A DNA stretch of 36,774 nucleotides from Clostridia bacterium (GTDB lineage: Bacteria > Bacillota > Clostridia > UBA1212 > UBA1255): assembly GCA_017620915.1 (NCBI GenBank), contig JAFZSK010000017.1:1-36774 (forward strand), in the 5' to 3' direction. Of the stretch, positions 13,122 through 33,816 are shown in pieces. The position numbers were made by a program, and so were the translations under genes. Positions within the stretch are counted from its first letter, which is position 1. Each line of letters opens with the position of its first letter. The notes beneath the pieces are model-generated. The model was not told the origin of the DNA. It did no database searches and saw only the letters and a program-made list of their open reading frames with translations.

Positions 13122-13275
13122 TTAAAGGACCCCTTCCGCGAAAGAACAGTAGTTCTGCAAATTGACGCATTTTTCGCTGCGCCGACCGCTTTCTGCATGT
13201 ATTTTACAACAAATTGAAAGAATTTTCCACTGGAAATAAGGCGGGCTGCGTGAAAAGGCTGCCCGGCGGGGTTGT

Positions 13276-13583
13276 GTCAGCCACAACTCTGGTTTTTGCG
13301 TTTTGTGGCTGACGGATCGGAGGAGGGTGTCAGCCACAACTAGGGAGCTTGGGGTTTTGTGGCTGACGGATCGGAGGAGGGTGTCAGCCACAACCCGAGA
13401 GTTTGGGGTTTTGTGGCTGACGGATCGGAGGAGGGTGTCAGCCACAACTAGGGGTTCTGGCACTTTGTGGCTGACGGATCGGAGGAAGGTGTCAGCCACA
13501 ACTAGGGGTTCTGGCACTTTGTGGCTGACGGATCGGAGGAAGGTGTCAGCCACAACCCGAGAGTTTGGGGTTTTGTGGCTGAC
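13276..13583. repeat. Family A hairpin array, six units (A1)
   Basis: Six units start at 13276, 13329, 13383, 13437, 13491 and 13545 (pitch 53 then 54). Each has GTCAGCCACAA, a 17-18 nt variable loop and TTTGTGGCTGAC or similar, then a constant linker GGATCGGAGGAGGGT (GGAAGGT in two units). Stems of 9-11 bp are perfect. Loops of units 3 and 6 are identical, as are loops of units 4 and 5. The pitch of 18 codons leaves several frames open, which creates spurious repetitive ORFs on both strands. The array lies between the divergent 11127-13121 and 13918-14526 genes. Confidence 0.95.
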
Positions 13584-13604
13584 GATAATAGAAAAAGAAT
13601 CGGC

Positions 13605-19186: not shown

Positions 19187-19244
19187 ATATTCAATGCAGA
19201 GCGGTCAATATTACCGGCCCTGTCCACTTCCCACTTTCCCGTGC

Positions 19245-19547
19245 GACAGCCACAAAGGCTTTATTATCAAAATGTGGCTGATGATTTCCCGCGCTGCGTC
19301 AGCCACAAAGACAGAATTTTCAGATTGTGGCTGACGATTTCCCGCGCTGCGTCAGCCACAAAGACAGAATTATCAGATTGTGGCTGACGATTATCCGCGT
19401 TGCATCAGCCACAAAAGTCGAATCTGCGAATTGTGGCTGACGATTTCCCACGCCGCATCAGCCACAAAAGCCAAATCCACAAATTGTGGCTGACGTTTTG
19501 CCGCGCTACATCAGCCACAAAGACAAAATCTTCGAATCGTGGCTGAC
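19245..19547. repeat. Family A hairpin array, six units (A2)
   Basis: Units start at 19245, 19298, 19351, 19404, 19457 and 19510, an exact 53-nt pitch. Each has RTCAGCCACAAA (GACAGCC in the first), a variable loop of about 17 nt and GTGGCTGAC, then a linker like GATTTCCCGCGCTGC. The stem equals that of array A1 but the linker is wholly different. Loops differ more from unit to unit than in A1. The array lies between the convergent acpP and NMN adenylyltransferase-like genes; no gene is visible from 19187 to 19683. Confidence 0.95.
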
Positions 19548-19561
19548 GACCAGACTCCCGG

Positions 19562-19683: not shown

Positions 19684-20241
19684 TTACATGCTCGCCGTCT
19701 CGTTATTGCCCGCGGAGCGCAGCACGGCTTCGCGCAGTTCGTCGAAGCGGTGGTAATTGGCCGGATCGGAAAAGATGCGCCACTTTAAAACTTCGCCCGC
19801 GGCCAGAAACTCGCGCAGCTGCGTGGCGGAAATATCCACCGTCTTGGGCACGTAGAGTTCGCTGATGGCGGGGTTGTCGTCGAACCAGCTGATCCGGCGT
19901 TCTTCGCGGCCCGTCACGAACAGTGAAGGCGGCGTACCCAGCACTTCTGAAGCAGAGGAGTAAACATAATTGCCCCAGGCGGGCACGTTGCCCACGCCCA
20001 GATCCGGCAGCGGCGCGATAATCAATCTGCCCCGCTCTGCCTCACGCGGGAAGATCTCCGCGATCACGTCCCGGCGCGTCTCGTAGGACAACGGATTTTT
20101 CGCGGTCCCCGCCTCCTGCGACGAGCCGATCAGCACCAGCACGCGGTCGCACAGCCGGAGCGCCGCCCGCACGATATTGCGGTGGCCGATATGAAAGACC
20201 TGGAAGCGGCCCACGATCAGGCCGGAGGCGTACGCTCTCAT
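19684..20241 (-). CDS. NMN/NaMN adenylyltransferase-like nucleotidyltransferase (NadM/NadR-type)
   Basis: 185 aa. ATG 20241 overlaps the stop of the PncA-NadE gene by four bases (ATGA), with GGAGG 8 nt upstream; the longer frame is a shadow. The N-terminal GRFQVFHIGHRNIV is the nucleotide-binding GxFxxxHxGH motif of adenylyltransferases. VLVLIGSSQEAGTAKNP and the C-terminal DISATQLR (the ISSTxIR motif) fit the NadM/NadR type rather than the classic bacterial NadD. It should form dinucleotide (NAD or NaAD) from mononucleotide and ATP. Coupling to the NadE fusion supports NAD synthesis; NMN versus NaMN preference is unknown. Confidence 0.88.
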   Translation of the reverse strand: MRAYASGLIVGRFQVFHIGHRNIVRAALRLCDRVLVLIGSSQEAGTAKNPLSYETRRDVIAEIFPREAERGRLIIAPLPDLGVGNVPAWGNYVYSSASEVLGTPPSLFVTGREERRISWFDDNPAISELYVPKTVDISATQLREFLAAGEVLKWRIFSDPANYHRFDELREAVLRSAGNNETASM

Positions 20242-21557
20242 CCTTCGATCCTCCAGAGCCCCGGGTCGTACCCCGCGATGGGCTTGCGCTTGAACGCGCT
20301 GCCTTTTATTTTTGCGTCGATCTTGGCTTTGACCTCCGGTTCGGCGGAACCGGTGCGGAGGTAGTTGTCCAGCTCGGCGTAGCGGAAGCCGAACGCGTCC
20401 TCGTCGGTGCGGCCGCAGAGTCCGTCGGACGGCGCTTTGACCACCAGTTGCACAGGGATCTCCGGCATCGTGAGGCCGATCGCCACCACTTCGGAGGCGG
20501 TCAATCCGGCCAGCGGCGAAAAGTCGCCCACCGCGTCGCCCCACTTGGTCTCCCAGCCGATCATGGTCTCGGAGAGGTTGCAGGTATGGGCCACGCGCCC
20601 GTTCAGCGACTGGGACAACGCATACAGCGTACTCATCCGGATCCGCGGCGGCAGGTTGTTGCGGGTCTGGGCGGATATTGTCACCGGCCGCTCCTGCGTT
20701 TCCGGCGCCTCACCGAGGGAGTTCAGCACGCCGGAGGTCGCGGCGTGGATGTTGACCGTGTACCCGCGGATCCCCAGCGCTTTGATCACGTTGCGCGAGT
20801 CGTCAATATCCGGCTGCACGCCGTCCGGCATCATCACGCCGATCACGCGCTCCGGCCCCAGCGCCCGGGCGCACAGGGCGGCAACTACCGTGGAATCCTT
20901 GCCCCCGGATATGCCGATGACCGCGGGAGACTGCGGCCCGTTGACCGCGAACCAGCCGCGGATCCACTCGACGATCGCGTCCCGCTGCGCCGCGGCGTCA
21001 AAAGCCTTCCGCGCGTCGTCAATTACGTCGATCTGGCAGCTCTGCATCGTTGCCAGCGCCGCTTTGTGCAGCTCCGGCGTCACGCCCGCGCAGCACGCCG
21101 CGTCCACTTTTATGACGGAATTCGGGAACGCCGCCCGCAGCAGCAGCGCGTTGGACACCACGCAGATGTCCGTGCAGAGCCCGATCACTTCAAATTCGAT
21201 TTCTTCCGGGTCCGTATCCGCAAGCTCGTTTTTCAGCTCGTTCACCGCGTCCAGCGCGCCGAAAGTGTACTTTTTGACCGCGACGTACCCCTTTTCTTCC
21301 AGCGCCGCGCGGACAACGGCGTTGACCTTGTGCCCGTCGCTCCCGTCAAAACAGTGCGGCACGGGCAGCTTCCGCCCTTCTAGCGTTGCGGCGTAGGTCT
21401 CCGCAAAATGCGTGTCCAGGGTGGCAACGATCCGCTCCCCCTCGAACGCCCTGATCTTCGCGGCCACCGCGGGCAATATCCGCTGCGCCTCCGCGGAGCC
21501 CAGCGACCCGTCAACAAAGTCATTCTGCATATCGATCACAAATAAAAAGCGTTTCAT
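20238..21557 (-). CDS. Nicotinamidase-NAD synthetase fusion (PncA-NadE)
   Basis: 439 aa, ATG 21557 with GGGAGG 8 nt upstream. Residues 1-185 are a cysteine-hydrolase (isochorismatase/nicotinamidase) domain: VIDMQNDFVDGSL with catalytic Asp9, Lys at 95/96 and the nucleophile in GLCTDICVVSN (Cys132). Residues about 190-439 are an ammonia-type NAD synthetase: PP-loop GISGGKDSTVV (Ser217-Ser222), then CNLSETMIGWETKWGDAVGDFSP. There is no glutaminase domain, so ammonia is the donor. The first domain would itself release ammonia when it deamidates nicotinamide, which gives the fusion a possible logic. Phosphoribosyltransferase (PncB) is not in the window. Confidence 0.92.
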   Translation of the reverse strand: MKRFLFVIDMQNDFVDGSLGSAEAQRILPAVAAKIRAFEGERIVATLDTHFAETYAATLEGRKLPVPHCFDGSDGHKVNAVVRAALEEKGYVAVKKYTFGALDAVNELKNELADTDPEEIEFEVIGLCTDICVVSNALLLRAAFPNSVIKVDAACCAGVTPELHKAALATMQSCQIDVIDDARKAFDAAAQRDAIVEWIRGWFAVNGPQSPAVIGISGGKDSTVVAALCARALGPERVIGVMMPDGVQPDIDDSRNVIKALGIRGYTVNIHAATSGVLNSLGEAPETQERPVTISAQTRNNLPPRIRMSTLYALSQSLNGRVAHTCNLSETMIGWETKWGDAVGDFSPLAGLTASEVVAIGLTMPEIPVQLVVKAPSDGLCGRTDEDAFGFRYAELDNYLRTGSAEPEVKAKIDAKIKGSAFKRKPIAGYDPGLWRIEG

Positions 21558-26841: not shown

Positions 26842-26897
26842 TATCCTGTAAAAATTTTTTTGGCTCGGCGGCGGGCGCGCCGGGGACAATGCGGAGC

Positions 26898-27095
26898 GTA
26901 GGCCGAAACACCTTTCTTTCCATCTTTTCGGCCTCCGCGAAGAGGCTGAGCGTAGGCCGAAACTCCTTTCTTTCCATCTTTTCGGCCTCCGCGAAGAGGC
27001 TGAGCGTAGGCCGAAACACCTTTCTTTCCATCCTTTCGGCCTCCGCGAAAAGGATGAGCGTAGGCCGAAATCCTTTCTTTCCATCTTTTCGGCCT
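26898..27095. repeat. Family B hairpin array, four units (B2)
   Basis: Units start at 26898, 26952, 27006 and 27060, an exact 54-nt pitch: GTAGGCCGAAA, a pyrimidine-rich loop with CCTTTCTTTCC, TTTCGGCCT, then linker CCGCGAAGAGGCTGAGC. Stem AGGCCGAAA/TTTCGGCCT is kept in all four. The array lies between the tRNA promoter and the promoter of the 27220 operon. The open frames across it are artefacts of the 18-codon pitch. Confidence 0.95.
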
Positions 27096-27142
27096 CCGAG
27101 AAGAGGCGTCCTCCTCAAAGAAGCCGCCCCGCAAGATGAATA

Positions 27143-27171
27143 TAGACCTTTGCCGAAAAAAGTAGTATACT
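27143..27171 (+). promoter_or_regulatory. Possible promoter of the kinase-isomerase/corrinoid operon
   Basis: TAGACC (27143-27148), 17 nt, TATACT (27166-27171), about 40 nt before the transcript's first start codon. No cobalamin riboswitch is visible in the short leader. Confidence 0.5.
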
Positions 27172-27219: not shown

Positions 27220-29184
27220 ATGAAAGAATGCTTTATCGGGCTGGATATAGGGACCTCGGCGGTCAAAGGGGCGCTGGTCACAACGGAGGGCGAAGTGCTG
27301 GGTGTTGCCGGCGCGCCCTTCGTGTACAGAATTGAGGAGGGGGCGAAGGTCATTGACGCTGAGCCGTTTGTGGACACCTGCCTCGGAGTGATAAAAGAGC
27401 TTGCGGGGAGAACGGAATTGACCGTGAGCGCGTTGTGCTCCTGCTGCGCCAGCGGAAATCCGGTGTTTCTGGGAGAAGAATTGACACCGATCACGCCCAT
27501 AATCGGGTGGCAGACGCAAGTGGCGCAGGAAGACCTGGACCGGGTGTACACGGCCGAAGAGCAGGACGCGTTTTACCGCATTGTCGGCTGGCCGCTGGAG
27601 CACGGCATGCCCGCCGCGAACCTCGCCTGGGTCAAGCTGCACAAACCCGAGATCCTCGAAAAGACGCGGTTTCTCGCCATGAGCGCAGAGTATCTGAATT
27701 ATCAGCTCACCGGGCGCTGGGGCCTCTCCCACTCCATGGCCACGCCGTCGTTCCTGGTGGTGCAGGAGACCGGCGAATATAATCTGCCGCTGCTCGCGAA
27801 GTTCGGGTTGACCAAAGAGCAGGTGCCGCCCGTATACGACAAAGGCACCGTGCTGGGCACGGTCAAGCCCGAAATGGCGCAGAAACTCGGGCTCAGCGCT
27901 CGCACACAGGTCGTGCTGGGGAGTTTTGACCATCCGTCCGGAGCGCTCGGCGCCGGCGTACTGGAAGAAGGCGATCTGCTGCTCTCCTGCGGCACGTCCT
28001 GGGTGGAGTTGTTCCCGGTGGCCACGCGGGAGTTTGGGCTTTCCACCGGCGGGCTCGTTGACCGCTTCATGCTGAACGGACCGCCGTACTGCGTGATGGA
28101 ATCCGTAGCCTCCATCTCCGAAAAGATCGACGCGCGCCGGGAGCATTTCTTCGGCAAAGTGCCGCATAAAGTGTTCGATGCGTACGTGGCGGCCGGCGTG
28201 TCCGGCGCTCACGGGCTGCGCATCGACTTCACGGACCACGACTTCGCGCGCGCCGAAGGGCACAGCAAAGAGGATATTGCCCGCGCCATCATCGAAGGCG
28301 CCGCACTGCTGTTCAAGGACAATCTGGCCAAACTGGAACGCTCCGGCCTGATCGCCCGCAACATCACCGCCATCGGCGGCATCACCAACTCCCCCATCTG
28401 CACTGCCGTGATCTCGGAAGTGCTGGGCCAGGAGATCAAGGTGGTCAACGGTCAATCCGCCGGCGCCGTGGGCTCCGCGCTGCTGGCGGGCATCGGCACA
28501 GGCTGGTTCGCCGGCGAGCGCGAGGCGTTTGCGGCAATGAAGGCGCACCTGGATAAAGCCGCGGAAGAAGCGGCCGCAATTGCCGCCGCTAAAGCCTCCG
28601 CCGAAGCCGCGGCCCGCGAAGCGTTCCGCATCGAGAGCGAGTGCATCCGGGAAATGGCGGAAGTATTTGACCCCGCCGCGTATCAAAAGGCCGTGGAGCT
28701 GTTGATCGCCGCCCCGCGGATCGGCGCCTCCGGCTGCGGGCATTCCGGCATATTGTGCCAGCATTTTGCCCACCTGATGTGCTGCATCGAACAGCCCGCG
28801 AAATTCATCTCCCCCGCCGAAGCAGTGCACGGCGGCACTGGGTTCCTGCAGGCGGGCGACGTATGCGTGCTGGCGTCCCGGGGCGGCAAGACCGCGGAAC
28901 TGCTCCCGATCATGCGCATCTGCCGCGAGAAAGGCGTCAAGATCATCACGATCACTGAAAATCTCGACTCGCCTCTGGCGACCGGCGCGGACGTGGTCCT
29001 GAAGCAGCACGTCAACCGCGAAACGGACCGCTACAACTGCCAGGGCACCACGTCGTCAACGGCGCTCGCCGTGATCTTCCACGTGCTCCAGACGATGCTG
29101 ATCGAGGAGACCGGGTTCCGCAACGAGCAGTTTGCGGTGATACATCCGGGAGGAGCAGTGGGACAAAGGCTAAACAAGAAGTGA
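27220..29184 (+). CDS. FGGY-family carbohydrate kinase fused to a SIS-domain sugar isomerase
   Basis: 654 aa, ATG 27220 behind AAGGAG. Residues 1-435 are an FGGY kinase: GLDIGTSAVKGALV (phosphate loop), SFDHPSGALGAG, SCGTSW, and GGITNSPICTAVISEVLG near the end of the second lobe. An Ala-rich helix (about 447-475) links it to a SIS domain, about 480-654, with GASGCGHSGILCQHFAHL, the GKTAELLPI loop and the KpsF/GutQ-like ending HPGGAVGQRL. It may isomerise and phosphorylate one sugar or polyol. Substrate unknown. It is first in a same-strand run leading into corrinoid genes, and its stop codon begins a short TAAGTG repeat. Confidence 0.9.
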   Translation: MKECFIGLDIGTSAVKGALVTTEGEVLGVAGAPFVYRIEEGAKVIDAEPFVDTCLGVIKELAGRTELTVSALCSCCASGNPVFLGEELTPITPIIGWQTQVAQEDLDRVYTAEEQDAFYRIVGWPLEHGMPAANLAWVKLHKPEILEKTRFLAMSAEYLNYQLTGRWGLSHSMATPSFLVVQETGEYNLPLLAKFGLTKEQVPPVYDKGTVLGTVKPEMAQKLGLSARTQVVLGSFDHPSGALGAGVLEEGDLLLSCGTSWVELFPVATREFGLSTGGLVDRFMLNGPPYCVMESVASISEKIDARREHFFGKVPHKVFDAYVAAGVSGAHGLRIDFTDHDFARAEGHSKEDIARAIIEGAALLFKDNLAKLERSGLIARNITAIGGITNSPICTAVISEVLGQEIKVVNGQSAGAVGSALLAGIGTGWFAGEREAFAAMKAHLDKAAEEAAAIAAAKASAEAAAREAFRIESECIREMAEVFDPAAYQKAVELLIAAPRIGASGCGHSGILCQHFAHLMCCIEQPAKFISPAEAVHGGTGFLQAGDVCVLASRGGKTAELLPIMRICREKGVKIITITENLDSPLATGADVVLKQHVNRETDRYNCQGTTSSTALAVIFHVLQTMLIEETGFRNEQFAVIHPGGAVGQRLNKK

Positions 29185-29199
29185 TAAGTGGTAAGTGAC
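29180..29199. repeat. Short TAAGTG-type repeat at the kinase-isomerase stop codon
   Basis: GTGATAAGTGGTAAGTGA follows AAGAA at the gene end; it includes the TGA stop (29182-29184) and belongs to the same repeat type as R1-R3. Confidence 0.5.
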
Positions 29200-29235
29200 A
29201 AAGAGAAAATGAATATATAAATCGGAGGGAAACAA

Positions 29236-29856
29236 ATGGAATTTAAGGTTTATCAGAAAGAACTGGAACTGCAGTCGCGGGGCTGGGTGCCCACGTTCCA
29301 CGATGTGTCGAAAGAGGTGCTGGAGATCGTCAAGGCGTCGGGTGTGAAGAACGGAACGGTGGCAATTGCCTCCCACCACACCACGTGCTCGGTGATGATA
29401 CAGGAGTGTTCGCACGATATTGACAGCTTTGACCTGGAATATCTGCAGCACGACCTCTTAGACATCATGCGGAAAATGATCCCGGATTTCGCCGAGGAGC
29501 ATCAGTACCGCCATCCCGGACCGATCCACCTGCAGTTCGGGCGCTACGTCAACGAGCCCGGCGACTTCACCAGCATGAACACCGACGGCCACCTGCGCTC
29601 CGTGTTCTTCGGCCGCAGCGAAGTCATGACCATCAAGGACGGCGAGCTGGACGGCGGAGAGTTTGCGCATATTTATTTCGTTGACTGGGACCACGTGCGC
29701 GCGCGCCGCAGACAGCTCAATATCACTGTCATGGGGACCACGGACGACGTGGAAGACCGCAAATGGAACGGCGGCGAAGTGATCAACACGCTGCACAAAT
29801 ACACGGACGAAGAAAAAGCGTACGACGAGCATTATACGCTGCAGCAGAAGCGTTGA
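29236..29856 (+). CDS. YjbQ/UPF0047-family protein
   Basis: 206 aa, ATG 29236 behind GGAGGG. The family core is clear: ASHHTTCSVMIQE, DLLDIMRKM, the HL(H)LQFGR-like stretch LQFGRYVN, VFFGRSEVMTIKDGEL and a closing strand in VDWDHVRARRRQLNITVMG. Members of about 135 aa are annotated as secondary thiamine-phosphate synthase, an activity seen as a side reaction; the true role is uncertain. This one is about 70 residues longer, with an inserted acidic part and a charged tail. It sits between the sugar kinase-isomerase and the methyltransferase gene, so a role in that pathway is more likely than thiamine synthesis. Confidence 0.85.
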   Translation: MEFKVYQKELELQSRGWVPTFHDVSKEVLEIVKASGVKNGTVAIASHHTTCSVMIQECSHDIDSFDLEYLQHDLLDIMRKMIPDFAEEHQYRHPGPIHLQFGRYVNEPGDFTSMNTDGHLRSVFFGRSEVMTIKDGELDGGEFAHIYFVDWDHVRARRRQLNITVMGTTDDVEDRKWNGGEVINTLHKYTDEEKAYDEHYTLQQKR

Positions 29857-29890
29857 CCGCGTGACGCCGGTACGGAAAGGAGGCGCACCG

Positions 29891-31009
29891 TTGACCAACA
29901 GAGAAAGAGGACTGAATATCCTGCATTTTAAGGACGTGGACAGATTGCCCGCGGTCCACTTCGGTTACTGGCCCGAACTCCTCACCGAATGGGCGGCGCA
30001 GGGCAAGATCCCCGCGGAACTGGCCGTGGGCAACTACGACGGCAGCGACAAAGAACGCGAACTCGACAAGCTGATCGGCTGGGATTTCAACTGGTTCCAC
30101 GTGACCGGCTACGTCCAGTCGCTGTACCCCGCGTTTGAGACCAGACTGCTGGAGACGCTGCCGGACGGTTCGCAGCGGGTGCAGAACAGCTTCGGCGTGA
30201 TCGAGCGCGTCAAACCCGGCGTCACCTCGATCCCCTCGGAAGACGATTATCTGCTCAAAGACCGCGAAGCCTTTGAAACACTGTACAAGCCGCGGATGCA
30301 GTACGCGCCCGAGCGTGTGGACACCGCTTACTACAGCAAGTTCAACGATCTCCGCCCCTGGGACGTTCCAGTAGGCCTGCATATGGGCTCTCTCTTGGGC
30401 GATATCCGCAACATCACCACCGTCAAAGGCATGAGCTACCTGCTGTACGACGAGGACGAGGAGCTGTTTGCGGACATCGTGGACACCTACGCCGAAATGC
30501 AGTACAAGTGCACGAAAAAGATCCTGGAGACCGGCGCGAAGTTCGACTACGCCCACTACTGGGAAGATATCTGCTTCAAGAACGGGCCGCTGCTCTCCCC
30601 CGCCAAATTCGACGAATTGTGCGCCAAACACTATCGGAAGCGCAACGAGCTGTGCCACGAGTACGGCATTGACATCATTTCCCTCGACTGCGACGGCGTG
30701 ATCGACAAACTGATCCCCACGTGGGTGCACACCGGCGTCAACACCATGTTCCCGCTGGAAGTCGGCGTATGGGGCGATCAGTTCGAACCCGCGCGGCGGC
30801 AATTCGGCAACGAAGCCCTCGGCATCGGCGGCATGGACAAGACCGCGCTCCGCCGTGACAAAGCGGCCGTGGACGCCGAGATCGAACGCCTCAAACGCCT
30901 GGTGGCGCTGGGGGGCTTCATCCCCTGCCCCGACCACCGGCTGATGCCCGGTACCAAATACGAACTCGTTCAGTATTACGCTGAAGAGATAAAGAAAATC
31001 AGACTGTGA
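29891..31009 (+). CDS. Uroporphyrinogen-decarboxylase-family (MtaA/MtbA-like) methyltransferase
   Basis: 372 aa from TTG 29891, chosen because GGAGG lies 7 nt upstream and TNRERGLNILHFKDVDRLP is the usual family start; a GTG at 29861 has no site. The barrel motifs include HFGYWPEL, GIDIISLDCDGVIDKLI and the ending PCPDHRLMPGTKYELVQYY. True HemE Arg residues at the N-terminus are not evident. The gene for a corrinoid protein follows 13 nt downstream, so it most likely moves a methyl group to or from the corrinoid; whether it acts on the substrate or on the acceptor is not decidable here. Confidence 0.88.
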   Translation: MTNRERGLNILHFKDVDRLPAVHFGYWPELLTEWAAQGKIPAELAVGNYDGSDKERELDKLIGWDFNWFHVTGYVQSLYPAFETRLLETLPDGSQRVQNSFGVIERVKPGVTSIPSEDDYLLKDREAFETLYKPRMQYAPERVDTAYYSKFNDLRPWDVPVGLHMGSLLGDIRNITTVKGMSYLLYDEDEELFADIVDTYAEMQYKCTKKILETGAKFDYAHYWEDICFKNGPLLSPAKFDELCAKHYRKRNELCHEYGIDIISLDCDGVIDKLIPTWVHTGVNTMFPLEVGVWGDQFEPARRQFGNEALGIGGMDKTALRRDKAAVDAEIERLKRLVALGGFIPCPDHRLMPGTKYELVQYYAEEIKKIRL

Positions 31010-31022
31010 CGGAGGAATCGCC

Positions 31023-31673
31023 ATGGACAACGAACTTTTACAGGAAATCTCCCTCAACCTGCAGCGCGGCAAAGCCAAAGTCGTCAAAGAACTGGTGCAG
31101 CAGGCGCTGGACGCGGGCATTGCCCCCGAGACCATTCTGCGCGAAGGCATGCTGGACGGCATGAACATCATCGGCGAGAAATTCAAGAACAACGAAGTGT
31201 ACGTGCCGGAAGTGCTGGTGGCCGCCCGCGCCATGAATATGGGTACGCAGGTCCTGAAACCCGCGCTGGAAGCCTCCGGCGTGAAAGCTACGGGCAAAGC
31301 GTGCATCGGCACCGTGCAGGGCGACCTGCACGACATCGGCAAGAACCTGGTCAAAATGATGCTGGAAGGCAAAGGCCTCGAGGTCATCGACCTGGGCACC
31401 GACGTTTCGCCCGAGACTTTCGTGCAGACGGCGATCGACGAAAACTGCCAGCTGATCTGCCTCTCCGCGCTGCTCACCACCACGATGGACGTGATGGGCG
31501 ATGTGGTCAAAAAGGCAGAGGAAGCGGGCATCCGCGACAAGGTCAAGATCATGATCGGCGGCGCGCCGGTGGATCAGGCGTTCTGCGACAAGATCGGCGC
31601 GGACGTGTATACGCCGGACGCGGCCAGCGCAGCGGACGCGGCGGTGGAACTCTGCCGCGCGATGTGCGAGTGA
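31023..31673 (+). CDS. Corrinoid-binding methyl carrier protein (MtaC/MttC-like)
   Basis: 216 aa, ATG 31023 with GGAGG 7 nt upstream. Residues 1-85 are the helical cap (B12-binding 2: EGMLDGMNIIGEKF and VYVPEVLVAARAM). Residues about 90-210 are the cobalamin domain with GDLHDIGKN, where His103 is the lower cobalt ligand, then LSALLTTTMDVM and IGGAPVDQAFCDKIGAD. It carries a methyl group between two methyltransferases. It lies between the UroD-type gene and the DUF2284 gene, 10-13 nt from each. Confidence 0.95.
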   Translation: MDNELLQEISLNLQRGKAKVVKELVQQALDAGIAPETILREGMLDGMNIIGEKFKNNEVYVPEVLVAARAMNMGTQVLKPALEASGVKATGKACIGTVQGDLHDIGKNLVKMMLEGKGLEVIDLGTDVSPETFVQTAIDENCQLICLSALLTTTMDVMGDVVKKAEEAGIRDKVKIMIGGAPVDQAFCDKIGADVYTPDAASAADAAVELCRAMCE

Positions 31674-31683
31674 GGCGGCGGCA

Positions 31684-32241
31684 ATGGCAATTGACGACGT
31701 ATTTGCCCGCTTAGAAGCGCTGGCGACCGGGCTGGGTGCGTACCGCGCGAAGGTGATCCCCGTTGACCGCGTGGAGACCGACGTGTCGTTCCGCGAGCTG
31801 TGCGCCAAAAACGTCTGCGGCAATTACGGCAAATGCTGGACCTGCCCGCCGGACGTGGGCGAGATCGACGCACTGATCGCGAAACTGCGCTCGTTCGAAT
31901 ATATCCTGGTGTACCAGTACGTGGGCACGCTGGAGGACAGCTTCGATTTCGAAGGCATGATGGACGCCGCGCTGAAGCACAACGAACTCACCGCCGCGGT
32001 CCGCGCCGCCTGCGAAAAAGAGGCGTTCCGTGACCGGCTGTATCTGTGCGCGGGCGGCTGCCGCATCTGCCCCGTCTGCGCTAAAAAGACCGGAGAACCA
32101 TGCCGTCATCCCGGAGAGGCACTGGCCTCTCTGGAGGCGTACGGCGTCAACGTCTCGCGCCTCGCGGCCGCTGCAGACATGAAGTACATCAACGGCCAGA
32201 ATACGGTCACGTACTTCAGCGGCGTGCTGTTCAGTATCTGA
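31684..32241 (+). CDS. DUF2284 metal-binding protein
   Basis: 185 aa, ATG 31684 with GAGG about 8 nt upstream. Cys-rich motifs: CAKNVCGNYGKCWTCPPD near residue 40, then YLCAGGCRICPVCAKKTGEPC (given here as part motifs: CAGGCRIC and CAKKTGEPC) and a conserved CRHPGEA. These are typical of DUF2284 and probably bind an iron-sulfur cluster. The family is often beside corrinoid methyltransferase genes; its exact job is unknown to me. Spacing of 10 and 18 nt to its neighbours supports one operon. Confidence 0.88.
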   Translation: MAIDDVFARLEALATGLGAYRAKVIPVDRVETDVSFRELCAKNVCGNYGKCWTCPPDVGEIDALIAKLRSFEYILVYQYVGTLEDSFDFEGMMDAALKHNELTAAVRAACEKEAFRDRLYLCAGGCRICPVCAKKTGEPCRHPGEALASLEAYGVNVSRLAAAADMKYINGQNTVTYFSGVLFSI

Positions 32242-32259
32242 CTTTTACATCTGTTTAAT

Positions 32260-33816
32260 ATGGACGATACCGGCAATTCCCGCACTTTCACCGCCCGCAT
32301 CGGCGACCGCGCGTTTCCCCTCTCCCACGGCCAGAGCCTGGGGAGTTTACTTCAGTCCGCGGTGCCCGGGGTCGCGTCGGCGGCAATGCCCTGCGGCGGC
32401 CACGGCAAATGCGGCAAGTGCAAGGTGCGTGCGGCGGGAGCGCTGTCCCCGGTAACGGCGGCAGAGCGGCACTTTTTGACGGACGATGAACTGGCCGCGG
32501 GCATGCGGCTGGCGTGTCAGACTTTCGCGGAGGGCAACGTCGAACTGACGCTCCCGGACGCCGAACGCGCCGCGCGGATAATTACCGACGGCGAGCTGCC
32601 GCAATATTCGCTCGCGCCGGGTTTTTCAGCGTACGGCGCCGCGGTGGACATCGGTACTACGACCGTGGCGGCAACGCTCTACGACGCCCGCGGCACCCGG
32701 CTGGCCCGGGCCAGCGCACTGAACCCGCAGCGGCGCTGGGGCGCGGACGTGATCTCTCGCATGGAGGCGGCGCTGGCCGGCGAGGCCGCGGAACTGGCCG
32801 CGGCGATCCGCGCGGAGATCTGCGAATTGCTGACTTCGCTGGCGGCGCAGGCGGGGATCGGCACGGAATGCATTGACGGCGCGGTGATCACGGGCAACAC
32901 TGTAATGCTCCATCTGCTGGCCGGCGTCAACACCGAACCCCTCACCCACGCCCCGTTTATTGCCTCCGAACTGTTCGGCCGCACGCTGCGCGCCGCCGAG
33001 CTGGATCTTTCCCCGCTTTCCCCGGAAACGCCGATTTATCTGCCCCGCTGCATCGCGGCGTTCGTGGGCGCGGACATCACGTCGGCGCTGCTGGCCGCGG
33101 AAGCATATTCAGCCGGGCACACGGAACTGCTTACGGACATCGGTACCAACGGCGAAATGGTGCTCAATATTGACGGCCGCCTGCTGGCCTGCTCCACCGC
33201 CGCAGGGCCCGCGTTTGAAGGCGCCGGCATCAGCATGGGCATGGGCGGCAGCGCGGGGGCGATCGACCGGGTATATCTCGCAGAGGACAACAGCGAAAGC
33301 CCGTTCAAGGTGCACGTCATCGGCGACGTGGCTCCGGTGGGCATCTGCGGCAGCGGCCTGATCGACGCGGTCGCCTGCCTGCTGGAGACCGAAGCCATTG
33401 ACGAGACCGGGTTTATGGAGGACGCGCCGGCAATGTTGACCCCGCCGGTCTGCCTGACGCAAGACGATATCCGCGCGGTGCAGCTGGCCAAAAGCGCCGT
33501 GCACGCGGGCATCCGCACACTGCTGAAGACTGCCGGGCTCAAGCCGGACAATATCGAAACTTTATACATTGCCGGCGGCTTCGGCAATTCGCTGAACGTG
33601 GACAACGCCGGGCGCATCGGCCTGATACCGGCCGAATTGACTTCGCGCGTCAGGTCCGTAGGCAACGCCGCCCTCGCCGGCGCCTCACTCATGCTGCTGT
33701 CATTGACCAAACGCGCCGAGTCCGAAGCGCTGGCAAAAAAAGTCGAGGTCGTGGAATTATCCAACGACCCCGTGTTTGCCAATGAGTTTATGGAACAGAT
33801 GATGTTCCCTGTCTAA
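32260..33816 (+). CDS. RACo-type reductive activator of corrinoid protein (ASKHA ATPase, [2Fe-2S])
   Basis: 518 aa, ATG 32260; no good ribosome binding site is visible, so coupling to the gene 18 nt upstream is likely. Residues 1-95 are a ferredoxin-like domain with Cys45, 51, 54 (PCGGHGKCGKC) and Cys86. From about 125 the ASKHA fold: AVDIGTTTVAATLYD, NPQRRWGADVISRM, TDIGTNGEMVL, GICGSGLIDAV and LYIAGGFGNSLNVDNA. RACo proteins reduce inactive Co(II) corrinoid to Co(I) with ATP. This supports an active methyl-transfer pathway. The stop codon is one base from the stop of the convergent DUF4091 gene. Confidence 0.95.
   Translation: MDDTGNSRTFTARIGDRAFPLSHGQSLGSLLQSAVPGVASAAMPCGGHGKCGKCKVRAAGALSPVTAAERHFLTDDELAAGMRLACQTFAEGNVELTLPDAERAARIITDGELPQYSLAPGFSAYGAAVDIGTTTVAATLYDARGTRLARASALNPQRRWGADVISRMEAALAGEAAELAAAIRAEICELLTSLAAQAGIGTECIDGAVITGNTVMLHLLAGVNTEPLTHAPFIASELFGRTLRAAELDLSPLSPETPIYLPRCIAAFVGADITSALLAAEAYSAGHTELLTDIGTNGEMVLNIDGRLLACSTAAGPAFEGAGISMGMGGSAGAIDRVYLAEDNSESPFKVHVIGDVAPVGICGSGLIDAVACLLETEAIDETGFMEDAPAMLTPPVCLTQDDIRAVQLAKSAVHAGIRTLLKTAGLKPDNIETLYIAGGFGNSLNVDNAGRIGLIPAELTSRVRSVGNAALAGASLMLLSLTKRAESEALAKKVEVVELSNDPVFANEFMEQMMFPV

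Follow-up and report, generated by a model that had tools for sequence, protein, structure and literature searches.

A corrinoid methyl-transfer module joined to a sugar-phosphate module in an operon of a Clostridia bacterium

Results

Two gene modules share one operon

The subject of this study is a six-gene operon on a stretch of 36,774 nucleotides (the window; contig JAFZSK010000017.1 of assembly GCA_017620915.1, G000:C34 in our comparison) from a Clostridia bacterium whose 2.57-Mb draft genome is 97% complete. All six genes lie on the plus strand between 27220 and 33816. The first (27220..29184) encodes an FGGY sugar kinase (amino acids 1 to about 435) fused to an SIS sugar-phosphate isomerase (about 456-654), and the second (29236..29856) a YjbQ/UPF0047 protein of a 206-amino-acid type (Pfam UPF0047, 2e-24). 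They are followed by UroD1, a predicted UroD-superfamily methyltransferase (methyltransferase I, MT I; 29891..31009; URO-D, 6e-7), by a corrinoid protein composed of a cap and a B12 domain with a DLHDIG motif (31023..31673; B12-binding, 3e-27; B12-binding_2, 1e-19), by a DUF2284 predicted metal-binding protein (31684..32241; 9e-45) and by a RACo/RamA-like ATP-dependent corrinoid reductive activase with a 2Fe-2S domain (32260..33816; Fer2; RACo middle, 2e-40; RACo_C, 1e-67). The intervening gaps measure 51, 34, 13, 10 and 18 nt. An earlier note on this DNA had named the same six genes with gaps of 10-51 nt, had recognised the last four as a corrinoid methyl-transfer core and had taken the first two to point to sugar metabolism; Pfam identities and gap counts confirm this description, and carbohydrate enzymes also recur with UroD1 in other genomes.

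Sequence comparison divides the six genes into two conserved modules, normally apart, that are joined here in one operon: module A (FGGY kinase-SIS-YjbQ) and module B (UroD1-corrinoid protein-DUF2284-RACo). We infer that they are co-transcribed. A promoter-like site (TAGACC-17-TATACT; 27143..27171, plus strand) lies upstream of the operon, one of three such consensus matches in the region where 2.0 are expected, and no terminator-like site was found on the plus strand inside the six-gene operon. Purine-rich ribosome-binding sites precede five of the six genes, RACo being without a clear one. UroD1 starts at TTG 29891, preceded by AAGGAGG, in an open reading frame (ORF) that is already open from GTG 29861. 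Neither the window nor any of 17 related loci yielded a cobalamin or S-adenosylmethionine riboswitch. We also considered, and ruled out, a chimeric contig: this is very unlikely because a second, independent assembly (G014:C7) shows the YjbQ-UroD junction as well, and dozens of loci show the kinase-SIS-YjbQ junction.

Module A is a conserved kinase-isomerase-YjbQ unit

To place module A, we compared 40 genome loci, each encoding a relative of the fusion protein. SIS is present in all 40, YjbQ in 37 and FGGY in 33, and SIS directly adjoins the 206-amino-acid YjbQ in 35. The FGGY kinase-SIS-YjbQ set is a conserved sugar-phosphate unit of rumen and gut Clostridia. Within the fusion of the window, both FGGY-kinase domains (FGGY_N, 4e-33; FGGY_C, 3e-12) and the SIS domain (2.5e-17) are found in the same 654-amino-acid ORF. 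The SIS part resembles the KpsF/GutQ/KdsD isomerases in keeping AVHG and a C-terminal HPGGAVG, and its best match among solved structures is 3fxa, an SIS protein of unnamed function. It differs from these isomerases, and the kinase from known FGGY kinases, in being fused and in NCBIfam scores far under the curated cut-offs (for SIS against the KpsF/GutQ model TIGR00393, 104.7 bits against a cut-off of 203.7). YjbQ reaches 86.5 bits in Pfam, against a gathering score of 27, and 65.7 bits with TIGR00149, just below the cut-off of 67.75.

Kinase and SIS are separate genes in most relatives and fused in the window and in G010 (locus L004). In the kinase tree, the window groups with L020, where the pair is split by a stop, and L004 groups with the split L012 and L014, with moderate support (87/95 and 94/90). 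The fusion probably arose at least twice, and such a repeated origin would be a good indication that the two domains function jointly; no description of such a fusion was found in the literature. Frequent partners of module A include a PRK04302 triose-phosphate isomerase (TPI)-like protein, an AraA-like isomerase, an amidohydrolase-like protein, a second YjbQ (164 amino acids), an aldolase of the FSA type, DeoR and major facilitator superfamily (MFS)-like proteins, the names amidohydrolase-like and MFS-like having been assigned by reading of the sequences.

Two further observations concern this unit. A conserved cluster in L012, L014, L018, L019 and L022-L043 contains genes for the amidohydrolase-like, AraA-like and TPI-like proteins, the 164-amino-acid YjbQ, FGGY, SIS and the 206-amino-acid YjbQ, sometimes together with an FSA-type aldolase and an MFS-like transporter; we found no published description of it. 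The 206-amino-acid YjbQ is itself unusually conserved, with 80-98% identity across families of the order, compared with about 55-70% for its partner kinase. A literature search on YjbQ function together with sugar genes gave nothing useful.

Module B recurs across the order and meets module A loosely

Module B is present in all seven genomes of the genus, usually on another contig than module A, and orthologues of UroD1 (46-88% identity) occur in 18 of the 31 genomes of the order, the window genome included. The operon reads UroD2-UroD1-(homocysteine methyltransferase, HcyMT)-corrinoid protein-DUF2284-RACo in G010-G013 and G015, UroD2 being a second UroD-type protein, and YjbQ-UroD1-corrinoid protein-DUF2284-RACo in G014, whose YjbQ and corrinoid protein are 98% and 96% identical to those of the window. 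DUF2284 occupies the same position in all seven genus operons; the titles and abstracts of papers naming it describe no function.

Genome G008 holds two unusual ORFs related to this module. One of 895 amino acids (L115:8686-11373, minus strand) combines AraC_binding, an AraC helix-turn-helix, a B12-binding cap, a B12 domain and URO-D, and another of 542 amino acids (L106:12436-14064, minus strand) joins AraC to a corrinoid protein as the first gene of a UroD/RACo operon. Their domains suggest that in each a transcription factor has been joined to the methyl carrier, the 895-amino-acid protein including the methyltransferase as well. A literature search for AraC-corrinoid fusions found nothing.

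How often do the two modules meet? In the congeners G010-G013, FGGY-SIS-YjbQ and UroD1 are on different contigs, and in three of these genomes module A adjoins the amidohydrolase-like, AraA-like and TPI-like genes. YjbQ heads module B in the congener G014; in G030, from another family, YjbQ and UroD1 share a strand, with YjbQ 7 kb upstream. At L041, an operon UroD2-UroD1-GH43-HcyMT-corrinoid protein (GH, glycoside hydrolase) is divergent from pyruvate kinase-p158-DUF4838/GH67N-p100-FGGY-SIS-YjbQ. The same divergent layout is seen at L015 as far as its contig extends. UroD1 and YjbQ lie within 10 kb of each other in three of the seven genomes of the order that carry both, for which a binomial estimate puts P between about 2e-5 and 1e-4; counting the congeners G000 (the window genome) and G014 as a single event raises it to about 1e-3 to 4e-3. 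The linkage of the modules is real but loose; they meet more often than by chance.

These layouts bear on the proposal of the earlier note that a single pathway is encoded, which would strip the methyl group from an O-methylated sugar or cyclitol and leave a polyol for FGGY-SIS to isomerise and phosphorylate. The single strand and short gaps, the YjbQ-UroD1 linkage in G014 and the divergent neighbours at L041 and L015 speak for such a pathway, and YjbQ or FGGY-SIS-YjbQ does meet UroD/corrinoid genes in G014, G030, L041 and L015. In G010-G013, module A lies away from UroD1 and mostly in another conserved cluster. Moreover, the FGGY-SIS gene is mostly not a neighbour of corrinoid genes: UroD1 and the corrinoid protein occur in just one of the 40 FGGY/SIS loci (L041), to which L015 adds UroD2 at a contig edge. 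For the fusion gene this is largely the outcome that the note had named as speaking against its proposal. We regard the note's interpretation as supported in part, but a single linear pathway as unsupported and quite improbable.

UroD1 lacks the zinc site of S-methyltransferases

The AlphaFold model of UroD1 (predicted local distance difference test, pLDDT, 92) is predicted to have the UroD/MtaA fold: its top Foldseek match is the MtaA-type methyltransferase 4ay7 of M. mazei (E 4e-13), and VIA gives Z 24 to heme UroD and Z 21 to 4ay7. Among solved structures, phmmer found no significant match to UroD1, and a profile search only weak heme-UroD matches. The strong fold match to heme UroD is as expected within the superfamily; a role in heme biosynthesis was rejected on the lack of a hemE model match in NCBIfam and on the corrinoid gene setting.

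Across 18 aligned UroD1 sequences (the window and 17 orthologues), the His-Cys-Cys zinc site is replaced by SLDCDG and PCPDHR, and the corresponding motifs of UroD2 are DSDG and SVDH. Among O-methyltransferases of the superfamily, cases are seen in which zinc ligands are lost or a Cys is exchanged for a carboxylate (PMC10418091). Because UroD1 is without the His-x-Cys...Cys zinc site of S-methyltransferases, the sequence favours a substrate whose methyl group is bound to oxygen. The same motifs weigh on a further candidate, a Type 1 mlp gene cluster acting on methyl-sulfur compounds or methyl-selenides. Its architecture matches, with one or more UroD-superfamily proteins, a corrinoid protein and Ram/RACE, and with no methyltransferase II (MT II) in the cluster (PMC10418091). 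Mlps, however, almost invariably have His-Cys-Cys zinc ligands, whereas UroD1 and UroD2 carry Asp-x-Asp and DH motifs, and the neighbours here are sugar rather than sulfur or selenium genes. The Mlp2/Mlp3 ligands being missing from both proteins, we rejected this candidate, which would be extremely improbable.

The corrinoid protein may serve methionine synthesis

Gene absences reported here rest on family searches of draft genomes, in which genes can be missed. The corrinoid protein is the only PF02607 match in the window genome, a point that the earlier note had missed together with its likely role in methionine synthesis. Six of the seven genus genomes have one such match; the sole exception is G015, which has two, the second protein (L173:2-1135; G015:C104) being 33% identical to the corrinoid protein of the window. 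MetE (PF01717) had no match in any of the seven genomes, and MetH was not found in the window genome, a 97% complete draft. Each genus genome encodes one stand-alone HcyMT (PF02574) of about 281 amino acids, which in the window genome lies at G000:C64 and keeps the three expected zinc cysteines (Cys201/266/267). In G012, G015 and L041 its gene stands between those of UroD1 and the corrinoid protein.

No pterin-binding MT II is encoded among the genes of the window. A PF00809 search of the genome identified a methyl-tetrahydrofolate (THF):corrinoid methyltransferase (MeTr; PRK07535 model above cut-off) in an operon MTHFR-EtfB-EtfA-MeTr at G000:C70 (L171:7498-10962; MTHFR, methylene-THF reductase). 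By tblastn the operon is found in six of seven congeners (L171, L172, L177-L180), the last gene in G014 being cut by the contig end. Its composition suggests an Etf-linked methylene-THF reductase tied to the methyl-THF:corrinoid methyltransferase. Homocysteine (PF02574), pterin (PF00809) and B12 (PF02607+PF02310) domains are thus separate proteins in one genome. Because it is the only PF02607 protein found there, the corrinoid protein may also provide a split methionine synthase with its B12 subunit, and module B probably serves both demethylation and methionine synthesis. There is precedent for both elements: MtgC of Ruegeria pomeroyi has been shown experimentally to be shared between a demethylase and methionine synthase (PMC12478193), and in Phaeobacter inhibens a split methionine synthase is accompanied by a RamA-like activator (PMC5764234).

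Alternatively, module B might be mainly a methionine synthase composed of corrinoid protein, HcyMT and MeTr and reactivated by RACo, with UroD1 feeding in methyl groups from an accessory, perhaps common, donor and module A an accidental neighbour. The single PF02607 protein, the lack of MetE and the placement of HcyMT within the operon of three genomes fit this scenario, as do the conservation of UroD1 across the order and the existence of split synthases with RamA-like activators (PMC5764234, PMC12478193). We nevertheless think it unlikely: no gene of the operon is as constant as UroD1, often with UroD2, whereas HcyMT is usually elsewhere, and module B repeatedly has module A and carbohydrate genes next to it.

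Carbohydrate genes accompany module B in several genomes

Carbohydrate genes lie inside the module B operon of L041 (GH43) and of G015 (cellulase-like, PF12876). Upstream of UroD2, G012 has a heparinase II/III lyase and a fusion of 2-keto-3-deoxy-6-phosphogluconate (KDPG) aldolase with 2-keto-3-deoxygluconate (KDG) kinase, and G013 a PfkB kinase of the same cluster. A GH5-like gene with two genes resembling short-chain dehydrogenases/reductases lies in or next to the operon in G030, as does a GH36-like gene in G008, and YjbQ paralogues (85-87%) stand beside KDPG aldolase and a PfkB kinase in G010 and G013. Such gene neighbourhoods suggest methylated sugars or sugar acids as substrates, among which we would tentatively put 4-O-methyl-glucuronate first. 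No corrinoid demethylase for a methylated sugar was described in the literature searched.

Could UroD1 instead be an ordinary aromatic O-demethylase for lignin monomers or their glycosides, like MtvB, OdmB or VdmB, with the sugar genes neighbours by chance or because these compounds come in glycosidic form? Methoxyaromatics are plentiful in the rumen, and the missing His-Cys-Cys site of the S-type would suit such an enzyme. Known UroD-type O-demethylases, moreover, act on methoxyaromatics (PMC13222342). Against this stand the GH43 and cellulase-like genes within the operon of two genomes (both, by eye, without signal peptides), the KDG kinase/KDPG aldolase genes beside it in others, and the fact that no aromatic-pathway gene was seen near it. 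On balance an aromatic substrate seems to us rather unlikely, though we rank it first among the alternatives.

Surroundings of the operon

Two tRNA genes precede the operon on the minus strand, and a GH123-like gene converges on it, its stop two bases past that of RACo. A tandem array of four copies of 53-54-bp units lies just upstream (26894-27107); further arrays of such units, about six copies each and differing in sequence between arrays, lie at 13274-13584 and 19242-19549. A single minus-strand ORF at 20238-21557 is, by eye, nicotinamidase-like fused to NAD synthase-like, and adjoins a nucleotidyltransferase-like ORF.

Discussion

Our favoured reading, to which we assign a probability of roughly 0.45, is that the operon combines a corrinoid demethylase in module B, whose carrier also serves a split methionine synthase, with a separate sugar pathway in module A, the methyl donor most likely being an O-methylated carbohydrate. 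We infer both the sugar substrate and the direction of methyl flow. In this scheme, UroD1 would transfer the methyl group from its donor to the Co(I) of the corrinoid protein, from which it would pass to homocysteine via HcyMT; MeTr would exchange methyl groups between the corrinoid and THF in either direction, and RACo would re-reduce cobalt after its oxidation. Separately, FGGY kinase, SIS isomerase and, presumably, YjbQ would phosphorylate and isomerise a ketose. We propose that modules A and B came under one promoter because the two share a class of plant-derived material as their target.

Several observations weigh against this scheme. UroD1 is conserved at 46-88% across the order, more than one would expect of an enzyme for a niche sugar, and in five genomes of family f5 a corrinoid protein-UroD1-RACo set lies among housekeeping genes with no adjoining carbohydrate genes. 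Such genomes commonly encode carbohydrate enzymes, and our neighbour counts are raw. L015 shows UroD2 alone at its contig edge, not UroD1; HcyMT and MeTr of the window genome are on other contigs than module B; and the metagenome-assembled genome is 97% complete, so that absences are no proof.

How does the system compare with known ones? On our reading its closest counterparts are the MtgBCDE system of Ruegeria pomeroyi (PMC12478193) and that of Phaeobacter inhibens (PMC5764234), which it would resemble in that one corrinoid protein is common to demethylase and split methionine synthase, that pterin, B12 and homocysteine proteins are separate and that, in P. inhibens, the activator is RamA-like. 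In contrast to these, the putative demethylase is of the UroD type rather than MtgB, DUF2284 is present with no DUF1638 seen in the operon, the host belongs to the anaerobic Clostridia, MeTr accompanies MTHFR-EtfBA and a sugar module occupies the same operon. With the O-demethylases MtvABC, OdmABCD and Vdm (compared with CdmABC in PMC13222342) it shares a UroD-superfamily MT I, a monomeric corrinoid protein and an activating enzyme. It departs from them in having MT II outside the cluster, invariant SLDCDG/PCPDHR motifs, carbohydrate neighbours and a UroD1 with no significant phmmer match among solved structures. We would class it with the known corrinoid demethylase/split methionine synthase systems, as a variant to which a conserved and apparently undescribed sugar-phosphate module is joined.

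A more specific scenario, which we advance tentatively, is that a corrinoid pathway strips methyl ethers from plant sugars, such as the 4-O-methyl-glucuronate of xylan, that a single corrinoid protein passes the methyl group to THF and methionine, and that the sugar enters phosphorylated-sugar or ketodeoxy-acid catabolism. The question is directly testable, since the gene partners are named, the candidate enzymes UroD1 and UroD2 are small and the list of substrates is short. The operon suggests that in gut Clostridia, too, a demethylase and methionine synthase may share one corrinoid protein, as has been shown for marine bacteria, but with a different methyltransferase, of the UroD type. Methyl ethers of plant cell-wall sugars are abundant, and a route for their anaerobic removal, if true, would fill a gap in the flow of carbon and methyl groups in the rumen.

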